From: Gammaproteobacteria bacterium
Lineage (GTDB): Bacteria; Pseudomonadota; Gammaproteobacteria; Enterobacterales; Psychrobiaceae
Assembly: GCA_013214965.1 (NCBI GenBank)
Contig: JABSRU010000041.1
Span: 1-36,586, forward strand
Direction of reading: 5' to 3'
DNA length: 36,586 bases
A program made the translations under genes and the position numbers. Positions 13,927 to 32,578 of the stretch are shown piece by piece (the stretch's first letter is position 1; each line of letters begins with the position of its first letter). The notes below the pieces were generated by a model, which searched no databases, was not told the origin of the DNA, and was given only the letters and a program-made list of their open reading frames with translations.

Positions 13927-13998
13927 GATCAAGGACAATCTCCCTACTCTTGGTAATTGTTAAATTGTGGCCATGTTAATCAAATGCATGGGGGCTCG

Positions 13999-14331
13999 AT
14001 GTTAAATACAAAACGATCAATCAGTTTAATCATTATTGCGCTCTTCTCATTGGCGGCATCGGCCAATAATTTAAGTTTGGAACGTCAGCAACAAATCACC
14101 CATTTAGTGAAGCAAGACTGTGGTTCATGCCATGGCATGACCCTTAAAGGGGGGTTGGGTACTCCGTTGTTACCGCAAGATCTCGCTCAAAAATCAGTGG
14201 AGTTTATAACATTCACTATTCTCAATGGCCGGCTGTCAACGGCGATGCCTCCTTGGCAAGATATATTAACGCGACAAGAAGCCATTTGGATTGCCGAGCA
14301 ATTAAAACGAGGAACGTTTAATGAAAAATAA
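13999..14331 (+). CDS. nirC: Periplasmic c-type cytochrome NirC
   Basis: This is a small monoheme cytochrome c of the nir operon. In Pseudomonas the homologue can pass electrons to NirS or assist its maturation. The ATG at 13999 gives 110 residues with a clean signal peptide (1-22, ending SAN). The heme motif CGSCH is at residues 41-45, and the likely distal ligand is Met83 in STAMPPW. Starting further upstream would bury the signal peptide. It is the first gene of the nirCFDLGHJEN operon, directly after an FNR/Dnr box, and overlaps nirF by 11 nt. Confidence 0.88.
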   Translation: MLNTKRSISLIIIALFSLAASANNLSLERQQQITHLVKQDCGSCHGMTLKGGLGTPLLPQDLAQKSVEFITFTILNGRLSTAMPPWQDILTRQEAIWIAEQLKRGTFNEK

Positions 14332-15541
14332 GACCAACAAAATGATTGCGATAGCTAGTTGTTGTATCGCGTTAAGCGGTTGCAGTTTATTGAGTGGTAA
14401 TGCGCAAACATTACGAGCCACCGGAGACATGGGGGTGGTGATTGAACGTGCAACGGGTCAGGTGCAAATTGTTAATCATAGCAATAACGAAATATTAGCT
14501 GAAATTGATGGCTTGGGTGATTTGTCACATGCATCAATCGTTTATTCACGAGACCAGCGTTATGCCTATGTCTTTGGTCGTGATGGTGGTTTAACCAAAA
14601 TTGATATTCTAAAAGATCAGATTGCCAAGCGAATTATGCAGTCAGGTAATAGCATTGGCGGGGCGATTAGCCAAGATGGCAAACTGGTGGCAGTGTCTAA
14701 TTACACGCCCGGTGGCGTTAAGGTGTTTAATGCAGAAACCCTTGAGTTAGTGGCAGATATCAAGGCAACAACCCTAATCGGTCATCAAAAAAACAAAGAC
14801 GGCACCATTAAGCGTTCTAAAGTTGTCGGTTTAGTAGATGCACCGAATCAACGTTTTGTGTTTAGTCTGTTCGATAGTGACGAGATTTGGATTGCGGATT
14901 TTTCGACTCCGCAATATCGAGTGACTAAATTTACCGACATTGGCCGTGCCCCTTACGATGGCTTAATTAGTCCCGATGGCCGTTATTACATTGCTGGGCT
15001 CTTTGGCGAAGACGGTATGGCACTGCTTGATCTGTGGAATATTGATCAGGGGGTTAAACGAATTTTAAAAGATTATGGCAAGGGCAATAAAAAATTACCG
15101 GTTTACAAAATGCCCCACCTCGAAGGGTGGGCGATGGCAGGAGACTATGCTTATATCCCGGCGGTTGGCTTACATCAGGTGTTAGTGATTGATACCAAGA
15201 CTTGGCTGCAAGTTGATGCGATTAAGGTGCATGGTCAGCCAGTGTTTGTGATGGCACAGCCTGATAACCGCCAAGTATGGATTAACTTTGCATTTCCAAA
15301 CAATGACACCATTCAGGTTATCGATACTCAAAGTCAGCAGCTAACAGATACCTTAACCCCAGGCCAGGGCGTGTTGCACATGGAGTTCACACCTCGCGGT
15401 GAAAATGTCTGGCTGTCGGTGCGTGATGAAGGAAAAATTCAAATTTATCACACGCAATCGAAGAAATTATTAAAAGAATTACCATCATCGAGCCCTAGTG
15501 GGATCTTCTTTACTAATCGTGCGCATCAGATTGGACTGTAA
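14321..15541 (+). CDS. nirF: Heme d1 biosynthesis lipoprotein NirF
   Basis: NirF is a beta-propeller protein related to the d1 domain of NirS and is needed for a late step in heme d1 synthesis after NirJ; its exact chemistry is still debated. It has 406 residues. The type II signal peptide ends in the lipobox LSGC (Cys21), so it should be anchored in the membrane facing the periplasm. Propeller-type repeats are visible (ISQDGKLVAVSNY, ISPDGRYYIAGLF, FTPRGENVWLSV). Unlike NirN it has no CXXCH. It is flanked by nirC and nirD. Confidence 0.93.
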   Translation: MKNKTNKMIAIASCCIALSGCSLLSGNAQTLRATGDMGVVIERATGQVQIVNHSNNEILAEIDGLGDLSHASIVYSRDQRYAYVFGRDGGLTKIDILKDQIAKRIMQSGNSIGGAISQDGKLVAVSNYTPGGVKVFNAETLELVADIKATTLIGHQKNKDGTIKRSKVVGLVDAPNQRFVFSLFDSDEIWIADFSTPQYRVTKFTDIGRAPYDGLISPDGRYYIAGLFGEDGMALLDLWNIDQGVKRILKDYGKGNKKLPVYKMPHLEGWAMAGDYAYIPAVGLHQVLVIDTKTWLQVDAIKVHGQPVFVMAQPDNRQVWINFAFPNNDTIQVIDTQSQQLTDTLTPGQGVLHMEFTPRGENVWLSVRDEGKIQIYHTQSKKLLKELPSSSPSGIFFTNRAHQIGL

Positions 15542-15543
15542 TC

Positions 15544-16020
15544 ATGGAATTTGATTTATTGTCACAGCAACTAATTAACAGCTATCAGCGAGATTTTCCG
15601 TTGTGCGATCGGCCTTTTTTAAAGTTGGCACAGCAGTTTGGAGTCAGCGAACAGCAAGTGTTAACCACACTCAAAACACTTAAAAAAAATGGAGTGTTAT
15701 CACGATTAGGGCCGGTGTTTAATCATCAGCAGGCCGGATCAAGCACCTTGGCTGCTGTTGCCGTACCAGCTAATGATATCGATCGGGTTGCCGAAATTAT
15801 TAATAATTTTGAACAGATTAATCATAATTATGCCCGTGAGCATCATTACAACCTGTGGTTTGTAGTGACCGCACCAACGCCCGAAGATCTTACGCAAGCA
15901 CTGACCGACATTGGTGATGCTACCGCGTGTGAAGTGCTGATTTTACCGATGGAAAAATCTCATCATATCGATTTATCTTTTACCGTGTGTTTTAAGCCAG
16001 TGATGGAGCAAGTGAGCTAA
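15544..16020 (+). CDS. nirD: Siroheme decarboxylase subunit NirD
   Basis: This 158-residue Lrp/AsnC-like protein is one of four related subunits (NirD, L, G, H) that decarboxylate siroheme to 12,18-didecarboxysiroheme in the cytoplasm. The N-terminal winged helix (FPLCDRPFLKLAQQF, LSRLGPVFNHQQAG) and C-terminal ferredoxin-like domain (NHNYAREHHYNLWFVV) are clear. The GPVF/AREH signature groups it with NirG rather than NirL/H. Named NirD by its order after nirF. Its stop overlaps nirL. Confidence 0.92.
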   Translation: MEFDLLSQQLINSYQRDFPLCDRPFLKLAQQFGVSEQQVLTTLKTLKKNGVLSRLGPVFNHQQAGSSTLAAVAVPANDIDRVAEIINNFEQINHNYAREHHYNLWFVVTAPTPEDLTQALTDIGDATACEVLILPMEKSHHIDLSFTVCFKPVMEQVS

Positions 16021-16520
16021 TGATGACCTTATCAGCGGATCAACAAGCCGGTTTGTTTGCGGCAATTGAACAAGGGTTACCGTTAGTTGAACGTCCCTAT
16101 TTAGCGCTGGCTGAGCAACTCGCCATTAGTGAAATGGCCGTTATCTCGACTATTGAATCTTGGCAAACACAGGGGCTCATTCGTCGCTTTGGCTTAGTGG
16201 TACGTCATCGAAAGTTGGGCTATCAGGCTAATGCGATGGTGGTGTGGGACATTGCCGCTGAGGATACCGAACGAGTGGCTGATTTGTTAGCGAAAGAAGA
16301 GGTGGTGACATTATGTTATGAGCGCCCCCGAGTCTTACCGCATTGGCGCTATAACTTATTTTGCATGATTCATGGCAAGAGTCGTGAACAAGTACTTAAG
16401 CAATTAGCCGACATTTGCCAGCGCCACCAACTCAATAAAATCACTAAAAATGTGCTGTTTTCAACCAAGGCATATAAACAGCGCGGTGGTCGATATGCAG
16501 CCACTGCCAATGGAGCATAA
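16020..16520 (+). CDS. nirL: Siroheme decarboxylase subunit NirL
   Basis: This 166-residue Lrp-like partner of NirD belongs to the second subtype, marked by IRRFGLVVRHRKLGYQ and the basic, Trp-containing RPRVLPHWRYNLFCMIHG. NirD and NirL would pair as the NirDL half of the siroheme decarboxylase. The start overlaps the nirD stop as TAATG; a second ATG three bases on is equally possible. Functional dependence on NirD is inferred from the family. Confidence 0.92.
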   Translation: MMTLSADQQAGLFAAIEQGLPLVERPYLALAEQLAISEMAVISTIESWQTQGLIRRFGLVVRHRKLGYQANAMVVWDIAAEDTERVADLLAKEEVVTLCYERPRVLPHWRYNLFCMIHGKSREQVLKQLADICQRHQLNKITKNVLFSTKAYKQRGGRYAATANGA

Positions 16521-16522
16521 TT

Positions 16523-16966
16523 TTGGATCAACTCGATAAGCAATTGATGAATCTACTACAAAAGGGCTTCCCAATAAGTGAGCGTCCTTTTAAAGATGTT
16601 GCAGCAACTTTAAATAGCACCGAGCAAGAAGTGATCTCGCGGGTGCAAGCAATGCTCGACAGCGGTTTGTTGACTCGTTTTGGTCCAATGTTTGATGCCG
16701 CCTGTTGGGGCGGTGATTTTACCTTGGTCGCGATGGAAGTACCCGATGACCGGTTTGAAGCAGTGAATGAAATCGTTAACGGCTTTGAACAAATAGCCCA
16801 TAACTATCAGCGAACACATCGGTTAAACATGTGGTTTGTTATTGGCACCGAAACCAGTAATGAAATATTTGAAGTGATTAAAAATATTGAACAAGCAACC
16901 GGATTACCGGTATTTAACATGCCCAAAGAGCATGAGTTTTTTGTTGGCCTTTATTTACCAGCATAA
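16523..16966 (+). CDS. nirG: Siroheme decarboxylase subunit NirG
   Basis: This 147-residue member of the NirD/G subtype has FPISERPFKDVA and LTRFGPMFDAA in the helix-turn-helix part and AHNYQRTHRLNMWFVIG in the ligand-binding part. The start is TTG at 16523, supported by GGAG 7 nt upstream inside the end of nirL. The first ATG is 8 codons later and would cut into the conserved N-terminal helix. It should pair with NirH. Confidence 0.91.
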   Translation: MDQLDKQLMNLLQKGFPISERPFKDVAATLNSTEQEVISRVQAMLDSGLLTRFGPMFDAACWGGDFTLVAMEVPDDRFEAVNEIVNGFEQIAHNYQRTHRLNMWFVIGTETSNEIFEVIKNIEQATGLPVFNMPKEHEFFVGLYLPA

Positions 16967-16985
16967 CGATAAGCTAGGAGCAACC

Positions 16986-17495
16986 GTGACAACCAACACT
17001 ATTTCTGCGTTAGAACGTCAATATATCGTATTAACCCAAGGTGGCTTGCCTGTGTGTGCCAAGCCTTATCACTGGGTGGCAGAGCAATTGGACATGAGCG
17101 TCGATGACGTGCTGACAATGACGATAGATTTAAAAGCCCGTGGCGTGATCCGGCGCATCGCTGCGGTGCCAAATCACTATAAGCTCGGCTATCAATTTAA
17201 TGGCATGACCACATGGGATGTTTGTGATGATCGGGCGTTAGAGTTTGGTAAAAAAGTGGGTGACTTACCCTTTGTTAGTCATTGTTATTTAAGGCCTCGT
17301 CATCTTCCACAATGGAATTACAACTTGTTTGCGATGGTACATGGTCGAAATGAACAAGAAATTAAACAATACCAACATCAGATTAACGAATTATTGAGTG
17401 AGGTATTACAAACTCACCAAGGGCCGGCTAATGACATATTAACCAGCACTCGAATTTTAAAGAAGACCGGGCTGCGACTGACCAGTACTAAATAA
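16986..17495 (+). CDS. nirH: Siroheme decarboxylase subunit NirH
   Basis: This member of the NirL/H subtype has IRRIAAVPNHYKLGYQ, LRPRHLPQWNYNLFAMVHG and a C-terminal TSTRILKKTGLR. I chose the GTG at 16986 because AGGAG ends 5 nt upstream, giving 169 residues. An earlier in-frame ATG at 16887 lies inside nirG and has no ribosome-binding site. It completes the NirDLGH set, so both half-reactions of siroheme decarboxylation are covered. Confidence 0.91.
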   Translation: MTTNTISALERQYIVLTQGGLPVCAKPYHWVAEQLDMSVDDVLTMTIDLKARGVIRRIAAVPNHYKLGYQFNGMTTWDVCDDRALEFGKKVGDLPFVSHCYLRPRHLPQWNYNLFAMVHGRNEQEIKQYQHQINELLSEVLQTHQGPANDILTSTRILKKTGLRLTSTK

Positions 17496-17523
17496 CTTGG
17501 GCGGCCTTTAAGGAATAATAATA

Positions 17524-18726
17524 ATGTTTAGAATCTCGCACTTATTAAAAACAATGATCATTGACACACCACCAAAGGCATCCCGTAAAATGCCTGGACC
17601 CGTGGTGATTTGGAATTTAATTCGCCGTTGTAACCTCAGCTGTAAACACTGCTATGCCACCTCGCTTGATATCGACTTTACCGGTGAACTGTCAACCCAG
17701 CAAATTAAAGACACCATGGACGATCTTAAAGTTGCTAAGGTTCCCGTATTAATCTTGTCGGGTGGTGAGCCCTTAATGCGCCCTGATATTTTTGAGTTGA
17801 CCGCCTATGCGAAATCTTTGGGTTTTTATCTTGCGCTATCAACCAATGGCACGTTAATTAACGAAGACAACATCGAACAAATTAAAGCGGCGCAGTATCA
17901 ATATGTTGGTATCTCCATTGACGGTCTAGAAGAGTATCACGATGCCTTTAGGCGCCAGAAGGGGAGCTTTAAAGCGTCGTTACATGCGATTAAGCTCTGC
18001 AAGAATGCCGGGATTAAAGTGGGGCTACGCTTGTGTCTAACCCGCGACAACAAAGATCAATTGGCAGACATGCTCGAATTAATGGATGAGTACAAAGTCG
18101 ATAAGTTTTATATGTCGCATCTTAACTATTCCGGTCGAGGAAAGCGCAGTGCCGATCGTGACGCGATGTTTTCAATGACCAAAGCAGGGATGGAGCAATT
18201 ATTTGAGCGAGCATGGCAACATATTTGTGAGGGCCGTGAATCTGACTTTGTGACCGGTAATAATGATGCCGATGGCCCTTTTCTATTACAGTGGGCGCAC
18301 AAGAAGTTTGGTGATGACCCTTTGTACAAGCAACGGCTTATTAATTTAAAGCAGCACTTAATTAATTGGGGCGGTAACGCTTCTGGCGTGAATGTTGCAA
18401 ATATCGATAATACCGGAACAATTCATCCTGACACTTATTGGTGGAGTCATGACCTTGGTAACGTAAAAAAGGACAAGTTTTCAGAGGTTTGGGCGAATAC
18501 GCAAGATGAATTAATGCTTGGTTTTAGGCAAGTACCACGCCCTGTTAAGGGGCGTTGTGCGCAATGTAAGCACTTAGCGATATGCGGTGGTAACACTCGA
18601 ACTCGTGCTTTTGCCCAAACAGGAGATGCCTGGGCTGAAGATCCTGGGTGTTATTTAACGGACCTTGAGATTGGGGTGATCTCTGCGAACAAATCAGCAG
18701 CTAATATAGAATTTGTCGAAATCTAA
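17524..18726 (+). CDS. nirJ: Radical SAM heme d1 synthase NirJ
   Basis: NirJ is the radical SAM enzyme that acts on didecarboxysiroheme, removing propionate side chains on the way to the two keto groups of heme d1. The radical SAM cluster cysteines are in RRCNLSCKHCYA (Cys36, 40, 43), with SGGEPLMRPD as the SAM-contact loop. A SPASM-like C-terminal cysteine cluster (RCAQCKHLAICGGN and PGC) should bind a second Fe-S centre. The 400-residue length is normal. It starts 28 nt after nirH. Confidence 0.94.
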   Translation: MFRISHLLKTMIIDTPPKASRKMPGPVVIWNLIRRCNLSCKHCYATSLDIDFTGELSTQQIKDTMDDLKVAKVPVLILSGGEPLMRPDIFELTAYAKSLGFYLALSTNGTLINEDNIEQIKAAQYQYVGISIDGLEEYHDAFRRQKGSFKASLHAIKLCKNAGIKVGLRLCLTRDNKDQLADMLELMDEYKVDKFYMSHLNYSGRGKRSADRDAMFSMTKAGMEQLFERAWQHICEGRESDFVTGNNDADGPFLLQWAHKKFGDDPLYKQRLINLKQHLINWGGNASGVNVANIDNTGTIHPDTYWWSHDLGNVKKDKFSEVWANTQDELMLGFRQVPRPVKGRCAQCKHLAICGGNTRTRAFAQTGDAWAEDPGCYLTDLEIGVISANKSAANIEFVEI

Positions 18727-18739
18727 TAACTAATATAAT
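18713..18739 (+). promoter_or_regulatory. Possible internal promoter before nirE
   Basis: A consensus TATAAT at 18734-18739 lies just after the nirJ stop, with TTGTCG at 18713-18718 as a weak -35 (15-bp spacing, or 16 if shifted by one base). The 111-bp gap to the preferred nirE start is the largest inside an otherwise tightly packed operon. In an AT-rich region this could be chance. Confidence 0.35.
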
Positions 18740-18837
18740 AAAGGTCTTTGGCAGAGTTAGGACGACATAATATGATAGTACCTCGACGTACTGCGAACTT
18801 GCCAAAGAGAATACCGCTAGAATTAATGAGAATAGTC

Positions 18838-19668
18838 ATGAATGAAACAATTAAGAAAATAGCAGCGAAGGGCATATTACAGCCTGGCGAAGTCGCACTA
18901 GTAGGTTCGGGTCCTGGTGATCCAGAATTGCTAACCATTAAAGCATTACGTTTTATCGAACAAGCCGATATTGCCATTTACGATCGCTTAGTCAGTGATG
19001 AAATCATGGCACTGTTACCTGAGAATTGCGAAAGAGTTTATGTCGGTAAAAAGCAGGCGAAACATTGCGTACCGCAAGAAGGCATTAATGAAATGCTAGC
19101 CGAACAGGCACTAATGGGTAAGCGCGTATTACGCCTTAAAGGCGGTGACCCTTTTGTGTTTGGTCGTGGCGGTGAAGAAGCGGAACATTTATTAAGCCGC
19201 GGTGTTAGTTGTCATGTTGCCCCTGGCATTACGGCGGCTTCGGCTTGTACTACTTATGCCGGCATACCGTTAACCCATCGTGGTGTGGCGCAGGGGTGTA
19301 CGTTTATCACCGGTCACCTACAAAACGATGGCAAACTTAATTTACCATGGCAGAGTTTAACCAGTGATGCGCAAACCGTGGTTTTTTACATGGGAATTAA
19401 CGCGTTGCCGACTATTTCTAAAGAACTGATTGCCCACGGTCGTGCAGCAAGCACACCGGCTGCTTTAATTCGAAACGGTACCCGTGAAAATCAGGAAGTG
19501 TATCGAGGCACATTAGGCACCTTAACTGATTTGGTGGCTAAGCATCAGATTAAGCCACCTGCATTAATCGTGATTGGTAATGTGGTTGATCAATTTGATA
19601 GCCGTCAGGTGGGTCAAATGGGCTACTTAAAATCATTGGTACCGGTGTTGCAACAAAAGGCGGTCTAA
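18838..19668 (+). CDS. nirE: Uroporphyrinogen III C-methyltransferase NirE (SUMT)
   Basis: This enzyme uses two S-adenosylmethionines to turn uroporphyrinogen III into precorrin-2, the entry to siroheme and heme d1. The SUMT motifs are all present: VALVGSGPGDPELLT, YDRLVSDEI, VGKKQAKHCVPQ, RLKGGDPFVFGRGGEE and PGITAASA. The start at 18838 (276 residues) matches the family N-terminus. The ATG at 18772 has AGGA upstream, but the extra 22 codons use ATA for every Ile and AGA for two of four Arg, unlike neighbouring genes, so I think they are untranslated. The stop overlaps nirN as TAATG. Confidence 0.93.
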   Translation: MNETIKKIAAKGILQPGEVALVGSGPGDPELLTIKALRFIEQADIAIYDRLVSDEIMALLPENCERVYVGKKQAKHCVPQEGINEMLAEQALMGKRVLRLKGGDPFVFGRGGEEAEHLLSRGVSCHVAPGITAASACTTYAGIPLTHRGVAQGCTFITGHLQNDGKLNLPWQSLTSDAQTVVFYMGINALPTISKELIAHGRAASTPAALIRNGTRENQEVYRGTLGTLTDLVAKHQIKPPALIVIGNVVDQFDSRQVGQMGYLKSLVPVLQQKAV

Positions 19669-21170
19669 TGAAAACTTTGATCGTGATCGCCGCGTTAGCG
19701 TTGGCTAACTTTTCCGTTGCAGGTAAGGCCGTTGCCAGCGATGGCGAAGCGTTATACCAGCAACATTGCCAATCGTGTCATGGTGTTGAGCGCCTTGGTG
19801 CGATGGGCCCCGCATTATTCCCAGAGAATCTTTCACGTTTAAAGCAACCGAAAGCGGCTCAGGTTATTGCCAAGGGTCGGATCGCAACTCAAATGCCAGC
19901 TTTTGATAAAATACTATCAAAACAACAAATTGATACGCTGGTGGACTATGTTTATAGCCCAGCGAAAGTGACACCCACTTGGTCGATTAACGACATTAAC
20001 AATTCACGCATTGAACACTTTGATCAGGCCAAGTTACCCAACAAGCCTCAGTTTGATGCCGACTTAATGAATTTGTTTATTGTGGTTGAATTGGGTGATC
20101 ACAGCGCAACATTACTTAACGGCGACACCTTTGAGCCAATCACCCGCTTTAAAACGCGATTCGCTTTGCACGGTGGTCCTAAATATTCACCCGATGGTCG
20201 CTATGTTTACTTTGCCTCGCGCGATGGTTGGATTAGTAAGTACGACATTTACAATATGAAAACTGTGGTTGAAGTGAGAGCGGGAATTAACACCCGTAAT
20301 CTCGCGATTTCATCGGATGGTAAATATGCCATCGTTGGTAATTATTTACCTCACAGCGCAGTCATTTTAGATACCAAGGATCTTAAGCCGATAAAGGTCA
20401 TTGCTGTTGCAGATAAAAATGGCGTGAACTCACGGGTTAGTGCCGTGTATAACGCACCGCCGCGTAATAGCTTTATCGTCGCCTTAAAAGACACCAAAGA
20501 AGTGTGGGAAATTGCCTATGGTGATAAGCACGGTAACCATCAACCGTTTCCGATCCGTCGTATTAGTACCGATGATTACTTGGATGATTTCTTTTTTGAT
20601 CCGCAATACAGCAAAATGATTGGTGCATCGCGCAGCAGTCATAATGGTCAAGTGATTAATCTCGATGATGGCAAAAAAATCGCCACCATCGATATGCAGG
20701 GAATGCCCCATTTAGGATCGGGGATTACTTGGGATTATCAAGGTAAGCAAGTGTTCGCTTCTCCAAACATTAAAGATGGCTTAGTCTCTGTTATTGATAT
20801 GGAAAACTGGCAGGTGATTAAAGAAATCAAAACCCTAGGGCCAGGTTTCTTTATGCGCAGCCATGCTAACTCTTCTTATGCTTGGGTCGATGTGTTTTTT
20901 GGCCCGAACAAAGACAAAGTACATATTATTGATAAATCGACCTTAAAAATTGTTAAAACTATTGCGCCAGCGCCGGGTAAAGTGGCCGCGCATGTGGAAT
21001 TTACTAAAGATGGCAAATATGTTTTGCTCAGTATTTGGGATAATGACGGTGCATTAATCGTCTATGACGCTAACACTTTAAAGGAGATCAAGCGTCTGCC
21101 AATGAAAAAACCATCGGGTAAATATAATGTTTACAATAAAACTCATTATGAAAGAGGCACTAGCCACTAA
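19668..21170 (+). CDS. nirN: Heme d1 maturation cytochrome NirN
   Basis: NirN is a periplasmic cytochrome c plus d1-type propeller protein. It carries out the final oxidation (the acrylate double bond) of heme d1 and hands the cofactor to NirS. After a signal peptide (1-24) the heme motif CQSCH lies at residues 34-38, with a Met ligand probably in TQMPAFD. The eight-bladed propeller follows (YSPDGRYVYFASRDGW, ISSDGKYAIVGNY, GMPHLGSGITW). The 500-residue length and the lack of an NirS-like FLHDG active-site loop (it has YLDDF) separate it from NirS. Confidence 0.92.
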   Translation: MKTLIVIAALALANFSVAGKAVASDGEALYQQHCQSCHGVERLGAMGPALFPENLSRLKQPKAAQVIAKGRIATQMPAFDKILSKQQIDTLVDYVYSPAKVTPTWSINDINNSRIEHFDQAKLPNKPQFDADLMNLFIVVELGDHSATLLNGDTFEPITRFKTRFALHGGPKYSPDGRYVYFASRDGWISKYDIYNMKTVVEVRAGINTRNLAISSDGKYAIVGNYLPHSAVILDTKDLKPIKVIAVADKNGVNSRVSAVYNAPPRNSFIVALKDTKEVWEIAYGDKHGNHQPFPIRRISTDDYLDDFFFDPQYSKMIGASRSSHNGQVINLDDGKKIATIDMQGMPHLGSGITWDYQGKQVFASPNIKDGLVSVIDMENWQVIKEIKTLGPGFFMRSHANSSYAWVDVFFGPNKDKVHIIDKSTLKIVKTIAPAPGKVAAHVEFTKDGKYVLLSIWDNDGALIVYDANTLKEIKRLPMKKPSGKYNVYNKTHYERGTSH

Positions 21171-21206
21171 TTTTTTAGTGACTGGTTAATCGTTAAAGGT
21201 ACAAAT

Positions 21207-22166
21207 TTGCAATATTTTCCAATTTTTGTTGATGGTCAAAAACTCAATGTCTTAGTGGTTGGCGGTGGTGAAGTCGCCACGCGCAAGGTTGAGCTGATGC
21301 TAAAAACACCAGCGCAAGTCACGGTGGTATCCCCAAAGCTATCATCGACCCTAATCCGCTTGCATCAGCAGGGTAAGATTAACTATGTCGAGACTTGTTA
21401 TGACAAAGTACTCTTAACAGATAAGCAGTTGGTTTTTGTGGCGACCGCCAACCGCCAACTTAACCGTCAAATTAGTCTCGATGCTCGCGCTGCAGGCGTG
21501 TTAGCCAATGTGGTTGATGATCCAGAATTATGCCATTTTATTACGCCCTCGATTATCGATCGTGCGCCGATGATTTTTGCCATTAGCAGCGGCGGAAAAT
21601 CCCCAGTGCAGGTGCGTTATTGGCGTGCTCGACTTGAAACCTTAATCCCACAAGCCTTAGGTCAAATAGCGACCTTTGCTGGTGGCAAGCGTCATCAAAT
21701 TAAGCAACACCTCGACAACGTGACTAAGCGCCGTAATTTTTGGGAATTGTTTTTCTCATCGTCTCGATCTGATGATCCCGAGCAGCTAGAACCACTATTT
21801 CAAGAACTGGTTACTGCGGTTGATACCAGCGCCCCGATTAAGGGCGAACTCTATGTGGTCGAAACGCCCAGTAATCCTGAGTTTTTATCATTGGTTGCAT
21901 TGCGCCATATGCAGCAAGCAGACATTGCGATTTACGATAAGGGCGTCAGCGGTGCGGTTATCGAGCTAGTGAGAAGAGATGCTGACCGAGAGTCAGTTGA
22001 TGGTGATGCACAGCAACAGCTCGAACAGCTATTGGCACAAGGGTTACGTGTGTGCTACTTATCGAGCCACTCTCATCAAAACCAAGCAGCGCTATGGCAG
22101 CAATTTCAACAATCAGAATATACCTTTAAAACCTTTGCTTGTGCCAAAGAGGTCATTGCCGTTTAA
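21207..22166 (+). CDS. cysG: Siroheme synthase CysG with intact N-terminal half and degenerate, truncated methyltransferase half
   Basis: Residues 1 to about 205 are the precorrin-2 dehydrogenase/sirohydrochlorin ferrochelatase part of CysG: the NAD loop VVGGGEVATRK, Asp104-Asp105 in NVVDDPE, and Ser127-Ser128 in ISSGGKSPVQVRYWRARLE. From residue 212 the start of the methyltransferase domain is recognisable (QQADIAIYDKGVS, VRRDADR), but the SAM loop GxGPGD has become VETPSNP. The protein ends at 319 residues instead of about 460. The TTG start at 21207 is backed by AAAGGT and aligns with the CysG N-terminus. NirE nearby would supply the lost methylation, so this gene probably acts only from precorrin-2 to siroheme. 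Confidence 0.85.
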   Translation: MQYFPIFVDGQKLNVLVVGGGEVATRKVELMLKTPAQVTVVSPKLSSTLIRLHQQGKINYVETCYDKVLLTDKQLVFVATANRQLNRQISLDARAAGVLANVVDDPELCHFITPSIIDRAPMIFAISSGGKSPVQVRYWRARLETLIPQALGQIATFAGGKRHQIKQHLDNVTKRRNFWELFFSSSRSDDPEQLEPLFQELVTAVDTSAPIKGELYVVETPSNPEFLSLVALRHMQQADIAIYDKGVSGAVIELVRRDADRESVDGDAQQQLEQLLAQGLRVCYLSSHSHQNQAALWQQFQQSEYTFKTFACAKEVIAV

Positions 22167-27821: not shown

Positions 27822-28130
27822 TTACTTTACTATCACCACACCGGTCATTTTGGGATGAGGACCGCAGCGATAATTAAATTGGCCTGCTTGATTAAAGGTA
27901 CGCTGATAGCTTTCGTCGGGGAAAAAATAGTCGGGCTCTGGATCGCCTAAGGCTTCGAACCACACATTGTGGTATTGGCGTCTTTCGATGTTGAGCCACT
28001 TGATGGTGTCACCAACGGCGATGGTGATTTGTTGTGGAATAAATTTGAATTTTTTGATATTCACTTCAATGGTGGCGGCGCAAACTGTTTGGATTATCAG
28101 CAACGCGGCGATTAATAATAACTTTATCAT
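27822..28130 (-). CDS. Periplasmic cupredoxin (type 1 copper protein)
   Basis: This small blue-copper electron carrier has a signal peptide (1-18, ending VCAA) followed by a plastocyanin-like domain. The copper ligands are visible: His54 in QYHNVWF and the Cys89-His92-Met95 cluster in YRCGPHPKMTG. The ATG at 28130 has AAGGA 7 nt upstream and gives 102 residues. Its position after nirS and nirT, with no nirM cytochrome c551 in the window, makes it a candidate electron donor to NirS; that role is inferred. A hairpin separates it from nirT. Confidence 0.87.
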   Translation of the reverse strand: MIKLLLIAALLIIQTVCAATIEVNIKKFKFIPQQITIAVGDTIKWLNIERRQYHNVWFEALGDPEPDYFFPDESYQRTFNQAGQFNYRCGPHPKMTGVVIVK

Positions 28131-28149
28131 CACAAAATCCTTAATAGAT

Positions 28150-28182
28150 AAAGCCGCCTGACATTGCTGTCAAGGCGGCTTT
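28150..28182 (-). terminator. Hairpin between the nirT-like gene and the cupredoxin gene
   Basis: AAAGCCGCC-TGACA and TGTCA-A-GGCGGCTTT form a 14-bp stem with one bulge and a TTGC loop. On the minus strand it follows the nirT-like stop by about 20 nt, but the T-tract is short (TTTAT). It is probably an attenuating terminator that leaves some read-through to the cupredoxin. Confidence 0.65.
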
Positions 28183-28201: not shown

Positions 28202-29980
28202 TTACTGACGTTTCGCATTCACTTCTGCGTCGTCATTGTCAAAACCAAGTTTGTAACCTAAAGATACATGGTGATAGCGCGCACTGGCGTAATCGTCATG
28301 GATCGCAAAGCCAAAGTTGTAAAGCTGACCTTTGCTAAGGTTAATGTCGCCTGGTTTGTCTGATGTAAGCTTGCGTTTGAATATGACAGTCCAAGTATCA
28401 CCTTTAAGAACGGCTTCTACTTCAGCGCCTTGTCCGCCATGCATATCGCGTTTGTCTAAGATATGACCGTCTTCAACAGTTTTGGTGCCAGCGCTGTAGC
28501 GGATAATATCCATGAACTTGCCATCGTTAAGCTGAGCGTCAATCTCGCTTTGGTCTTTGAGTTTGTCCCAACCACCGAGTTTTTTACCACGGCGACCTTT
28601 CATCTCAATTTTAGTCCGGCTTTCTTTAATGTACTTAGTGAGACCGTTGTTTAATCCGAGGCGTTCGCTAAGATCGCTACCCGCTAACGTATCGGCATCA
28701 GGTAGATGTGGCATGCCATTAACATCGGCATGACAAGTCCCCCAACAACCCGCACGGTCGGCATATTCAACATCGTTAGTTGCTAGCATGACCGCTAATT
28801 TGATTGGGTTTTCAGGATCCATCTTGCCACCTTCTACAAACGGCACAGGTGCATGTTTGTCGTTAGCCCAACTAAATTTAAGGTAAAGGAACTCGTCATC
28901 ATAAGTGGCGTTGACACTCACCGGGATGCTACCGCGTTTGCCGGGGATTACATTCGGTTCGAGATCTTTTTCACTTTCGCCAGAGACAATGTTTTGTCCC
29001 ATATCGGCGACTTCGGCTTCATGACATTCGATACAGCGATCACCTTTAACAAAGGCGCGTTTACCACCATGCTTACGACCGTGAATCCATTCAATAGAAG
29101 CGGTGCCAGGGTAAAACAGTGTGATATCACGGCTACCAGACTTGGCCCAGTCAACATTGATGGTACTGGCGGTTGTATTATCGCTGGCTGTTTCAGTAGT
29201 TGGTGTACTTGCTGTGGCTAGTGCAGCGGCGACAGCAGCATCGATTTTCTGTTGCTGATCGGCTTTCGCTGCTTTGTTAGCGGCTGAGGCTTCACTGGCT
29301 GCTAGTTTTTCTGCGGCAGCGACTTTGATGAGACCATCACGGTACATTTGCGGTACTTCGCGAATAAACTCTGGATTAGGTTTTTCTAATTCCTCGAGTT
29401 CTTCATCGCTTAACTTATCGCGAACGCTGTGGTGAGCAATACCTTTGTGACAATCGATACAGGTTTGGCCTGTTTCGAAGGCATTAAGGTGTTGTTTACG
29501 GGCGCGAGGTTTTTGAAATTCGGGGTTCATTGATTCGAAGTTATGACAGTTACGACATTCACGAGAATCGGTTTCTTTCATCGCTTTCCAAACATTTTTG
29601 GCTAAACGTAAGCGATTTTCATTGAATTTTTCAGGGGTATCAATGGTGCCAAGTATTTTATGAAGAATTTCGTTACTGGCTTGAATCTTACGCACAATTT
29701 TGTGGATCCATGGGCGCGGAACATGACAGTCCGGACAACCAGCACGAACACCGGTACGATTTGAAAAGTGAATAGTCGGTTTATATTCTTGATAGACGTT
29801 TTCTTCCATCTCATGACAACCAATACAGAACTCTGTGGTGTTGGTTGCTTCCATGGCTGTGTTAAAACCACCCCAAAAGAGGATGCCGACAATAAAAAAG
29901 ACGACAGCACCTGCGACGGTGGTTCCTAGAATTAGTCGGCGAGACATAAAACTAGGTTTTTTCATTGGTTGATTGGCCAT
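28202..29980 (-). CDS. nirT: NapC/NirT-type multiheme cytochrome fused to a C-terminal heme-binding-like domain
   Basis: Residues 1-215 are a NapC/NirT quinol dehydrogenase: one N-terminal membrane anchor (about 16-37) and four CXXCH motifs at 52, 82, 142 and 174. An Ala/Lys-rich linker follows (about 218-275). The C-terminal 310 residues carry a fifth CXXCH (316-320) and a CX3CH (CWGTCH, 412-417) in a region resembling the ethylbenzene-dehydrogenase-related/cytochrome c-552 heme-binding fold (VNATYDDEFLYLKFSW). At 592 residues it is about three times the size of Pseudomonas NirT. It likely draws electrons from quinol for NirS or its carriers. It starts 74 nt after nirS. Confidence 0.85.
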   Translation of the reverse strand: MANQPMKKPSFMSRRLILGTTVAGAVVFFIVGILFWGGFNTAMEATNTTEFCIGCHEMEENVYQEYKPTIHFSNRTGVRAGCPDCHVPRPWIHKIVRKIQASNEILHKILGTIDTPEKFNENRLRLAKNVWKAMKETDSRECRNCHNFESMNPEFQKPRARKQHLNAFETGQTCIDCHKGIAHHSVRDKLSDEELEELEKPNPEFIREVPQMYRDGLIKVAAAEKLAASEASAANKAAKADQQQKIDAAVAAALATASTPTTETASDNTTASTINVDWAKSGSRDITLFYPGTASIEWIHGRKHGGKRAFVKGDRCIECHEAEVADMGQNIVSGESEKDLEPNVIPGKRGSIPVSVNATYDDEFLYLKFSWANDKHAPVPFVEGGKMDPENPIKLAVMLATNDVEYADRAGCWGTCHADVNGMPHLPDADTLAGSDLSERLGLNNGLTKYIKESRTKIEMKGRRGKKLGGWDKLKDQSEIDAQLNDGKFMDIIRYSAGTKTVEDGHILDKRDMHGGQGAEVEAVLKGDTWTVIFKRKLTSDKPGDINLSKGQLYNFGFAIHDDYASARYHHVSLGYKLGFDNDDAEVNAKRQ

Positions 29981-30004: not shown

Positions 30005-30036
30005 AGAAAAGATGGCAGCTACGAAGTAACTGCCAT
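30005..30036 (-). terminator. Hairpin after nirS
   Basis: ATGGCAGCTAC (30012-30022) and GTAACTGCCAT (30026-30036) form an 11-bp stem with one G-U pair and a 3-nt loop. On the minus strand a T-rich CTTTTCTATT follows. It lies between nirS and the nirT-like gene, so it should give more nirS than nirT transcript rather than fully separate them. Confidence 0.7.
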
Positions 30037-30054: not shown

Positions 30055-31683
30055 TTAAGTTTTGTGGTTCACGCGATTAAACACGTTGAACTTACCAGTT
30101 GGCGTTGTTAAGCCTTTAATACGCTTGATTTCTTTAAGAGTCTTGGCATCATAAACAACAATTTCACCGGTTGGCTTTTTGGCATCTTTACGATTCCAAA
30201 CAGAGACCCAAACTTCACTACCGTCATCGTTAAATTCCATGTGCAGTGCAGCTTTACCTTCGTCAGTCGTTACACGGATTGTTTTAACAATTTCGTGAGT
30301 GTCTTTGTCAAATACTTGAACAGACTGCTGAATTTCAGGCTCTGGGTGCTTAAGTTGATCAGCCCATACATATTGAGATGTTTCATGGGTACGGATGAAT
30401 GCACCAGCACCATCAGTTTCAACTTCGTAACAAAGTTTCCAAGCGTGGTCTGGATGACCGATTGGATCATTACCCCAGACAGAAACAAGACCAGTACCTA
30501 GGTGAGTTGTGCCGCCAACTGGTCCACATTTTTTGTCAATCCAATTAGCGCCAGGACCTGGGTGAGGTAGGCTGTCTACTTCGATCATCGCTTCTAACTT
30601 GCGAGTTTTGGTATCAACAATCACCATTTTGTTTGACGCATTGGCAGCGATTTGGAAATAACGACCTGTTGTATCGAAGAAGCCATCATGCAAGAACTCT
30701 GCAGAAGTGATTTGAGTAATATTGAGGTTGTCTATATCGCTGTAATCCACTTGCCACATTTGGCCTAGCTCTTTAACCGCAACCATAAATGATGATTCAT
30801 TGGGTGTGGTGTAAATTGCCGCAACACGAGCTTCATTAACGAATTCACCTTTGGTGTTATAACCACGAGTTGAAACAACTTTAAGTGGGTTAAGAGTCAC
30901 TGCGTCCATGATCACAAAGTGAGAAGGCCAGTAACCGCCAGCGATTACGTATTTGCCATCACCAGATACGGCAATATCACGAGCATCGTAGGCCATCTTA
31001 GTTTCAGCCACTAACATTTTTTCTGGAGTTTGCCATAAATCGATTTTGTTAACTTTACCGTCACGACCAATGGTGTACCAGAAACGACCAAGGTCTTCAG
31101 CATGATCTATTGCGTGGTGTTCTGTACCTTTGATAACGTGTACTGCATAACCAGTATCGATATGGGTAATGATTTCTTTGGTGTCACCATCGATGATTGC
31201 CACTGTCCCTGCATCACGTTCGATAATAATAAAGAAGTTTTCCCAGTTGCGACTATGCATTGGTTTAGTTGGGTAGTCTTTTGGTGCGATGTATTCTTTG
31301 GTGTGAGAACGCATTTGTTCTAAGGACATTTCCGGTGGCACTGGCGGCGTCATCTGGATAAAGGTAGCTAGATTAGCGATTTCTTTTTTGTTAAAGATAT
31401 CGTCAAAATTATTCATACCGCCTTCTGTACCATATGAAATGATTTTTTCTAAACGTTTTTGGCCTTTCTTAAGCGTATTTGTTGGCTCAAGGTTTTTACC
31501 TGTGGCGCCTTTACGGAGTACGCCATGACAACCTGCACAGCGTTGGAAGTAGTGTAACTGAGCTTCCTCAAAGTCTGCTTTAGATAGCGTTGGCTCTGCG
31601 GCACTAACAGATACGCTCATTCCAGCAGCGACCATGCTAACTGCCATGGCTAATGCAGAAAGAGATAGTTTCACTTTTTTCAT
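30055..31683 (-). CDS. nirS: Cytochrome cd1 nitrite reductase NirS
   Basis: This periplasmic homodimeric enzyme reduces nitrite to nitric oxide. A signal peptide (ending VSAAE) is followed by a cytochrome c domain with CAGCH (about residues 49-53) and then the eight-bladed d1 propeller. The d1 proximal ligand is the His in GYAVH, and the two active-site His are in FLHDG and LPHPGPGAN. The C-terminal PTGKFNVFNR is typical. The ATG at 31683 has AAGGA 7 nt upstream; the ATG one codon earlier is too close. An FNR/Dnr box lies upstream. A His-rich insert of about 9 residues (KGTEHHAIDHAED region) follows the proximal His compared with the Pseudomonas enzyme. Confidence 0.97.
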   Translation of the reverse strand: MKKVKLSLSALAMAVSMVAAGMSVSVSAAEPTLSKADFEEAQLHYFQRCAGCHGVLRKGATGKNLEPTNTLKKGQKRLEKIISYGTEGGMNNFDDIFNKKEIANLATFIQMTPPVPPEMSLEQMRSHTKEYIAPKDYPTKPMHSRNWENFFIIIERDAGTVAIIDGDTKEIITHIDTGYAVHVIKGTEHHAIDHAEDLGRFWYTIGRDGKVNKIDLWQTPEKMLVAETKMAYDARDIAVSGDGKYVIAGGYWPSHFVIMDAVTLNPLKVVSTRGYNTKGEFVNEARVAAIYTTPNESSFMVAVKELGQMWQVDYSDIDNLNITQITSAEFLHDGFFDTTGRYFQIAANASNKMVIVDTKTRKLEAMIEVDSLPHPGPGANWIDKKCGPVGGTTHLGTGLVSVWGNDPIGHPDHAWKLCYEVETDGAGAFIRTHETSQYVWADQLKHPEPEIQQSVQVFDKDTHEIVKTIRVTTDEGKAALHMEFNDDGSEVWVSVWNRKDAKKPTGEIVVYDAKTLKEIKRIKGLTTPTGKFNVFNRVNHKT

Positions 31684-31716
31684 CATATTATCCTTAAATT
31701 TTTGCTTTACGGAACG

Positions 31717-31960: not shown

Positions 31961-32011
31961 GGGGTTAAAGATGGCAACATATAAAAATAAAATATGAGAA
32001 AGGTAATTGAA

Positions 32012-32578
32012 ATGAGCAAACGATTTAGTGCATTAATATTGGCGGCGACGATTGGCTTAATCATTGTGGCGATCGGTCTAGGTTTTTTATCTAGCTTTAC
32101 TAATCCGGTGTCGTGGATTTTGATTTGTGTGTTGGCGATGTTACCAATCATTTATAAATTCAAGCGCCGAAATAGCCAATTGGTGTGGAAAGAAGAATAT
32201 AGCGTTGGCGTAAAGGTGCTAGACGATGATCATAAAAAATTAATTGAGTTGTTAAACCAATTTAAAACCGCTTACGATTATCACACCAGCGAAGAATATG
32301 AAAAACAGTCGCTGGAGGCGTTGGTTAATTACACTAAGTTTCATTTTAATCGCGAAGAAGATTTGATGGAAAAAAATGAATACCCAGATTTAGCGGCACA
32401 TAAAAAGCAGCATCAGCAGATGATTGCTGAGGTTGAACGTTTTGTCGCTAAATATCATGAACAGGGCCATGATGCCTTAAGTGAAGTCAGTGATTTTTTA
32501 AGTGCTTGGTTAATTAATCATATTAATGGCACTGACAAACAATATAGCCAACATTTACACGATCGAGGTATTAGTTAA
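32012..32578 (+). CDS. Membrane-anchored bacteriohemerythrin
   Basis: Two predicted membrane helices (about residues 6-28 and 34-50) are followed by a cytoplasmic or periplasmic hemerythrin domain from about residue 58. The di-iron ligand set is complete: His74, His111, Glu115, His130, His134, His170 and Asp175. Hemerythrins bind O2 and, in some bacteria, NO. The ATG at 32012 with AAAGG 8 nt upstream gives 188 residues; the ATG at 31994 is in frame but lacks a site. The divergent position from nirS and the perfect FNR/Dnr box suggest co-regulation with nitrite reduction. The ligand it binds is not determined by sequence. Confidence 0.9.
   Translation: MSKRFSALILAATIGLIIVAIGLGFLSSFTNPVSWILICVLAMLPIIYKFKRRNSQLVWKEEYSVGVKVLDDDHKKLIELLNQFKTAYDYHTSEEYEKQSLEALVNYTKFHFNREEDLMEKNEYPDLAAHKKQHQQMIAEVERFVAKYHEQGHDALSEVSDFLSAWLINHINGTDKQYSQHLHDRGIS

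Follow-up and report, generated by a model that had tools for sequence, protein, structure and literature searches.

What does a NirT-like tetraheme cytochrome carry behind its membrane anchor when its gene follows that of a cytochrome cd1 nitrite reductase, and where would the electrons go? We analyzed such a gene on contig JABSRU010000041.1 of assembly GCA_013214965.1, a gammaproteobacterium of the family Psychrobiaceae; the whole stretch of 36,586 nucleotides is called the window below. The gene lies directly downstream of nirS and is probably nirT joined to nirB, the pair of cytochrome genes located after nirS in nirSTB-type clusters. By the same reasoning, which draws on fold, motifs, neighbors and separate-gene relatives, its tail is likely to be NirB, the diheme cytochrome c-552 whose gene neighbors nirT and nirS.

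A first-pass annotation of the sequence had described a NirT-like tetraheme anchor, an Ala-rich linker and a tail with the motifs CIECH and CWGTCH, and the translation and the Pfam models PF03264 and PF09459 bear out this architecture. The N-terminal half contains a hydrophobic stretch before residue 45 and four CX2CH motifs (CIGCH, CPDCH, CRNCH and CIDCH, starting at residues 52, 82, 142 and 174), and its score of 247.3 bits against PF03264 (curated cutoff 24.1) places it in the NapC/NirT family. A tetraheme anchor lengthened by a further heme part is also found in TorC and in long CymA homologues that have one more CX2CH at their C terminus (PMC6295460). A TorC-like cytochrome was rejected, however, as the TorC model covers only residues 26–201 and scores 242.0 bits against a cutoff of 478.2.

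The tail had been likened to EB_dh (ethylbenzene dehydrogenase-related) domains, and here, too, the profile search agreed, with PF09459 matching at 106.9 bits (cutoff 33.3). Modeled with AlphaFold2 (mean predicted local distance difference test [pLDDT] 76.7, predicted template modeling score [pTM] 0.81), the tail had its best Foldseek matches in the PDB with the gamma subunits EbdC (2ivf_C, E = 6.1e-07) and NXR-C (7b04_C, E = 2.1e-06), at modest query-normalized template modeling scores of 0.34–0.42. A PDB search with a tail profile found the same proteins (7b04_C, E = 0.00052; 2ivf_C, E = 0.014; 0.32 and 1.5 for single stretches); phmmer with the whole protein gave only chance matches in the PDB, and the tail profile was required for real ones. 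Domain model, profile and structure comparison all indicate the EB_dh-type domain and fold looked for in NirB. A type II dimethyl sulfoxide reductase gamma subunit was rejected (TIGR03477, 18.5 bits; cutoff 169.85). The region of the first tail heme motif, window positions 28960–29050, shows in a profile search a weak likeness to cytochrome c'' (1e8e, E = 0.065).

The two heme c motifs of the tail, one CX2CH and one CX3CH, are the number expected of NirB, and relatives with separate genes occupy the same place beside nirT and nirS. In loci L067–L071, four of them from Thiobacillus, nirS, nirT and nirB stand side by side as individual genes, and NirB has the same CX2CH/CX3CH pair; at L110 the order is nirS-nirT-nirB-cytochrome c-nirC-nirF. 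Similarly, the nirSTBM region of Stutzerimonas encodes a tetraheme NirT of the NapC/NirT type and a diheme NirB immediately downstream of nirS (PMC13086519), as two proteins rather than one chain, a comparison made by description only. A table for Pseudomonas stutzeri RCH2 lists NirS as Psest_0815, an "Ethylbenzene dehydrogenase" as Psest_0817 and NirF as Psest_0821 (PMC5554334), and NirB is elsewhere named cytochrome c-552, with an implied path from NirT through NirB to NirS (PMC8954225). It is because of this table and the descriptions of NirB that we read the EB_dh tail as NirB. What had first been taken for an extra module on NirT is, on this reading, a known cytochrome.

The fused protein is real and conserved, and its kind is already mentioned in published work: a 2026 paper (PMC13086519) mentions that Halomonas sp. 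2A has NirTB in fused form, going by its description the same fusion. Among the papers found, the accessible text states the fusion in this one only. The first-pass annotation was right about the fusion. The NirB assignment would settle the identity of the unusual tail, and the gene fusion adds evidence for NirT and NirB acting as one complex.

Prevalence of the fusion and its association with NirS

A motif-based scan gave 52 loci: 7 unfused and 45 fused, one of the latter having two NirB modules. In 48 of the 52, nirS was directly upstream. Three of the other four end at contig ends, and the last, L061, has a cd1 gene of 45% identity on the opposite strand. Among the 29 best loci found by a profile search of the class of the source genome (L076–L104), 23 were fused, 5 of these with two modules. 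A tblastn search of plasmids matched five records; in the two examined, those of Ruegeria sp. B32 and Azospirillum brasilense Sp 7, the fusion stands between a cytochrome d1 gene and a cupredoxin gene.

We then compared by hand the tables of tail-profile and NirS matches for 369 genomes of the class; all NirS counts that follow are among the matches listed, where short further pieces may be missing. The tail profile matched 44 genomes and NirS 77. NirS of at least 67% identity was present in 27 genomes (in three of them in fragments), and a tail match better than 1e-90 accompanied it in 26. The fusion was seen in 23 of the 26 (the window and 22 loci), and the remaining three (G264, G210 and G289) are cut by contig ends; in the one exception among the 27, NirS itself ends at a contig end (G374). 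Conversely, one genome (G203) lacks such a NirS but has a tail match that is close and fused. For a further 43 genomes, identity to the best cd1 match was 44–51%, and any tail match was found in 6: no fusion was seen in the five of these examined, and the sixth (G270) has a tail match of E = 9.1e-6. Seven genomes had weaker NirS matches only. At the level of sequence matches, the survey shows that the fused form is linked to one NirS group in this class, in agreement with the reported association of nirTB with one NirS clade (PMC13086519).

Several observations weigh against the reading as a NirT-NirB fusion that serves NirS. The NirT half misses the cutoff of the NCBIfam NapC/NirT model TIGR02161 (267.1 vs. 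310.6 bits), and the presumed likeness to P. stutzeri NirB rests on its description, not on its named sequence. NirT-NirB pairs also occur without nirS within the stretch examined (L105–L108), and Rhodocyclus is reported to have NirB but no nitrite reductase genes (PMC8954225). The link to one NirS group is imperfect as well: on the Azospirillum plasmid, the NirS that precedes the fusion shares only 46% identity with that of the window, and the NirS of L061 is divergent. Even in its own genus the fusion is patchy, with a full-length match in one of eight other genomes (G003, 84% identity); a genome of the same order (G036) has one at 64% identity. Finally, terminator-like or hairpin sites are found on either side of nirTB (Table 1), and because of them an operon of nirS, nirTB and the cupredoxin gene is not established.

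Probable electron path toward NirS

The most likely path leads from quinol through the four NirT hemes and the two NirB hemes to NirS, with or without the cupredoxin as intermediate. The N-terminal helix would anchor the NirT half in the inner membrane, where its four c-hemes would take electrons from quinol, with the linker bearing the NirB half, its EB_dh fold holding c-hemes on CX2CH and CX3CH, into the periplasm. From there, NirB would pass electrons to NirS, either in direct contact or via the neighboring cupredoxin or NirC.

The first-pass annotation had proposed a built-in relay from quinol to NirS that dispenses with a soluble cytochrome. Such a relay is possible, but its carrier-free part is not supported, given the candidate carriers at hand: a cupredoxin gene next door, a NirC-like gene in the window and, in the genome, matches to cytochrome c1 and to two more copper proteins (three in all, counting the window cupredoxin). 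A CcmH gene is also found in the genome. A cupredoxin gene follows nirTB in 18 of the 52 motif-scan loci, 19 of the 29 class loci and both plasmids examined; in the remaining loci it was not found within 600 bases of nirTB.

The same carriers, through the cupredoxin gene adjoining nirTB, the NirC-like gene and the matches to cytochrome c1 and further copper proteins, would suit a different arrangement, in which NirTB is an activating or side-path donor that reduces resting NirS once or feeds the cupredoxin/NirC pool, and the main flow runs from the bc1 complex through soluble carriers to NirS. We consider this rather unlikely, as nitrite reduction in S. perfectomarina ZoBell is reported to require NirT (PMC13086519).

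Heme motifs and possible pocket of the NirB half

The Cys and His residues of both tail motifs are identical in all 55 aligned tails, 52 of which came from the scan whose patterns included both motifs. The plasmid and class searches, which did not require the exact motif, gave the same picture as that scan, with its 52 of 52 loci: CX3CH was present in 29 of the 29 best class loci besides the window, and the preceding CX2CH in 27. Among 17 stretches chosen by place (L105–L121, from genomes partly shared with the other sets), 16 had both motifs, and the exception, the distant EB_dh relative L120, lacks CX3CH. Because of the identity of Cys and His across the 55 tails, the motifs are, as far as alignments can tell, more than a chance occurrence, and across these sets CX3CH is seen to be the rule in the NirB family. 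The earlier remark that CX3CH is rare does not hold within this family; the motif is also reported in ImcH and two CymA homologues (PMC6295460). In the accessible text of the literature found, CX3CH came up in connection with other proteins or in counts of motifs rather than with NirB, and the main text of PMC9084895 has no match for it. As a separate observation, an EB_dh-related protein with CWLTCH (L119:4987–6909) lies beside a NapC/NirT protein bearing a CX3CH of its own (CAGSCH).

If CX3CH held no heme, the protein would have five hemes, and the second Cys pair would merely steady the fold. The motif is uncommon and is missing from L120, but we find this improbable: its Cys, Cys and His are invariant in the aligned tails, it is kept in distant relatives despite changed inner residues (CWASCH, CWSTCH, CYITCH and CWLTCH), and NirB is called diheme in the literature (PMC13086519 and PMC8954225) while separate NirB proteins with CX3CH contain just one CX2CH.

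The predicted fold is that of EbdC and NXR-C, but those subunits have one heme b held by Met and Lys (in NXR-C, Met155 and Lys305; PMC8387239), whereas the tail has two c-type motifs and a His at the Lys position. A profile-profile alignment joined the tail to eleven EB_dh-type proteins (E = 3.8e-09), of which only one passes the curated family cutoff. In it, His570 falls in a column that has Lys in nine of the eleven, the other two having Lys one residue off; the spacing suggests that this is the heme-ligand Lys. On this alignment, the Lys ligand of type II gamma subunits would be replaced by His in the tail. The CX3CH region aligns poorly and appears as an insertion just before the Met-ligand stretch, an unreliable part of the alignment. 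In the AlphaFold2 model, CX3CH (tail residues 142–147) lies in a block of mean pLDDT 52, beside a stretch below 50, and His570 (tail residue 300) in a block of mean pLDDT 59; because of this low confidence the model does not show either residue group facing a heme pocket.

A tentative extension of the six-heme reading, less probable than not, is that the heme b pocket has been remade into a c-type site, with CX3CH providing two thioether bonds and a His, and His570 taking the place of Lys. The heme potential, high in EbdC and NXR-C, may thereby have fallen to a level suited to accepting electrons from NirT, and fusion and repeated NirB duplication would then have produced membrane-anchored heme wires of varied length, mostly for one NirS group. 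That the pocket instead retains a noncovalent heme b besides the two c-hemes, seven hemes in all, would fit the EB_dh fold and several invariant Met, Lys and His residues but is very improbable given the His at the Lys-ligand position and the CX3CH loop inserted, in the less reliable part of the alignment, just before the Met stretch.

New here are the invariant His570 at the Lys heme-ligand position of EB_dh-type proteins and the relatives with two NirB modules, for which no dedicated literature search on tandem NirB was made. Both offer simple handles on how EB_dh-type heme sites are tuned.

Tree, tandem forms and neighboring features

The NirB tree was built from 85 loci, including 17 of the 29 class loci and 13 of the 19 loci L105–L123; these gave 91 modules, of which 32 near-copies (at least 85% identity) were dropped to leave 59. 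A supported branch (98/92) separates 50 fused or tandem rows from 9 unfused ones. This is consistent with one fusion event, but a single origin is not proven because the root is the midpoint. The split is also less clean than it appears: an unfused Aliamphritea NirB (L043), dropped as a near-copy, is 95.7% identical to the fused L038 and probably represents a later split of the fusion.

Forms with the order NirT-NirB-NirB and eight motifs were found at L063 (7047–9794) and L111–L115, in frames of 915–998 residues, and the two modules of each are 74–100% identical to each other. Because the modules of L115 and those of L111/L112 group separately, duplication of the module, or copying between modules, is by this tree an event that happened more than once. 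In Aliamphritea spongicola (L043:7042–8879), NirT and NirB occupy a frame each, and the two frames overlap.

Table 1. Positions of the fused gene, its parts and neighboring features in the window
Feature	Position	Strand	Basis
Fused nirT-nirB gene (P0001)	28202..29980	minus	Open reading frame, 592 residues; Pfam domains
NapC/NirT tetraheme domain, residues 24–186	29423..29911	minus	PF03264, E = 9.8e-74; four CX2CH
Ala/Lys-rich linker, about residues 196–275	29156..29395	minus	Judged from translation
EB_dh-type NirB domain, residues 321–573 (Pfam match)	28262..29020	minus	PF09459, 106.9 bits; Foldseek to 2ivf_C and 7b04_C
CIECH, fifth heme motif, residues 316–320	29021..29035	minus	Translation, tail alignment
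CWGTCH (CX3CH), sixth heme motif, residues 412–417	28730..28747	minus	Translation, tail alignment
His570 codon	28271..28273	minus	His identical in 55/55 tails; aligned with Lys heme-ligand position of EB_dh-type proteins
nirS, cytochrome cd1 nitrite reductase, directly upstream	30055..31686	minus	PF02239, E = 5.3e-118
Terminator-like site, nirS/nirTB gap	30012..30036	minus	Consensus scan; 7 sites in region vs. 4.3 expected
Strong hairpin, nirTB/cupredoxin gap	28150..28182	minus	-22.7 kcal/mol, z = -6.3; not listed on this strand by the terminator scan
Small plastocyanin/azurin-family copper protein (cupredoxin), next downstream, candidate soluble partner	27822..28133	minus	PF00127, E = 2.4e-11
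NirC-like small cytochrome c, candidate soluble partner	13957..14331	plus	PF13442, E = 1.5e-10; NirF-type cytochrome d1 protein follows
Bacteriohemerythrin-type protein, divergent from nirS	31994..32578		

The window also contains an apparent heme d1 set on the plus strand (13957–22166), with gene names assigned by us: the NirC-like cytochrome c, a NirF-type cytochrome d1 protein, four NirDL-type proteins, a radical SAM protein (NirJ-like), a tetrapyrrole methylase (NirE-like), a cytochrome d1 protein with a c domain (NirN-like) and a siroheme-synthase-like protein.

In a different setting, a NirT-NirB pair with CX2CH and CX3CH (L108:1387–6374) follows a multiheme cytochrome with paired CXXCH motifs and an MtrB/PioB porin, and the 11 kb examined contain no nirS. 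From this neighborhood, NirB may also serve outer-membrane electron conduits.
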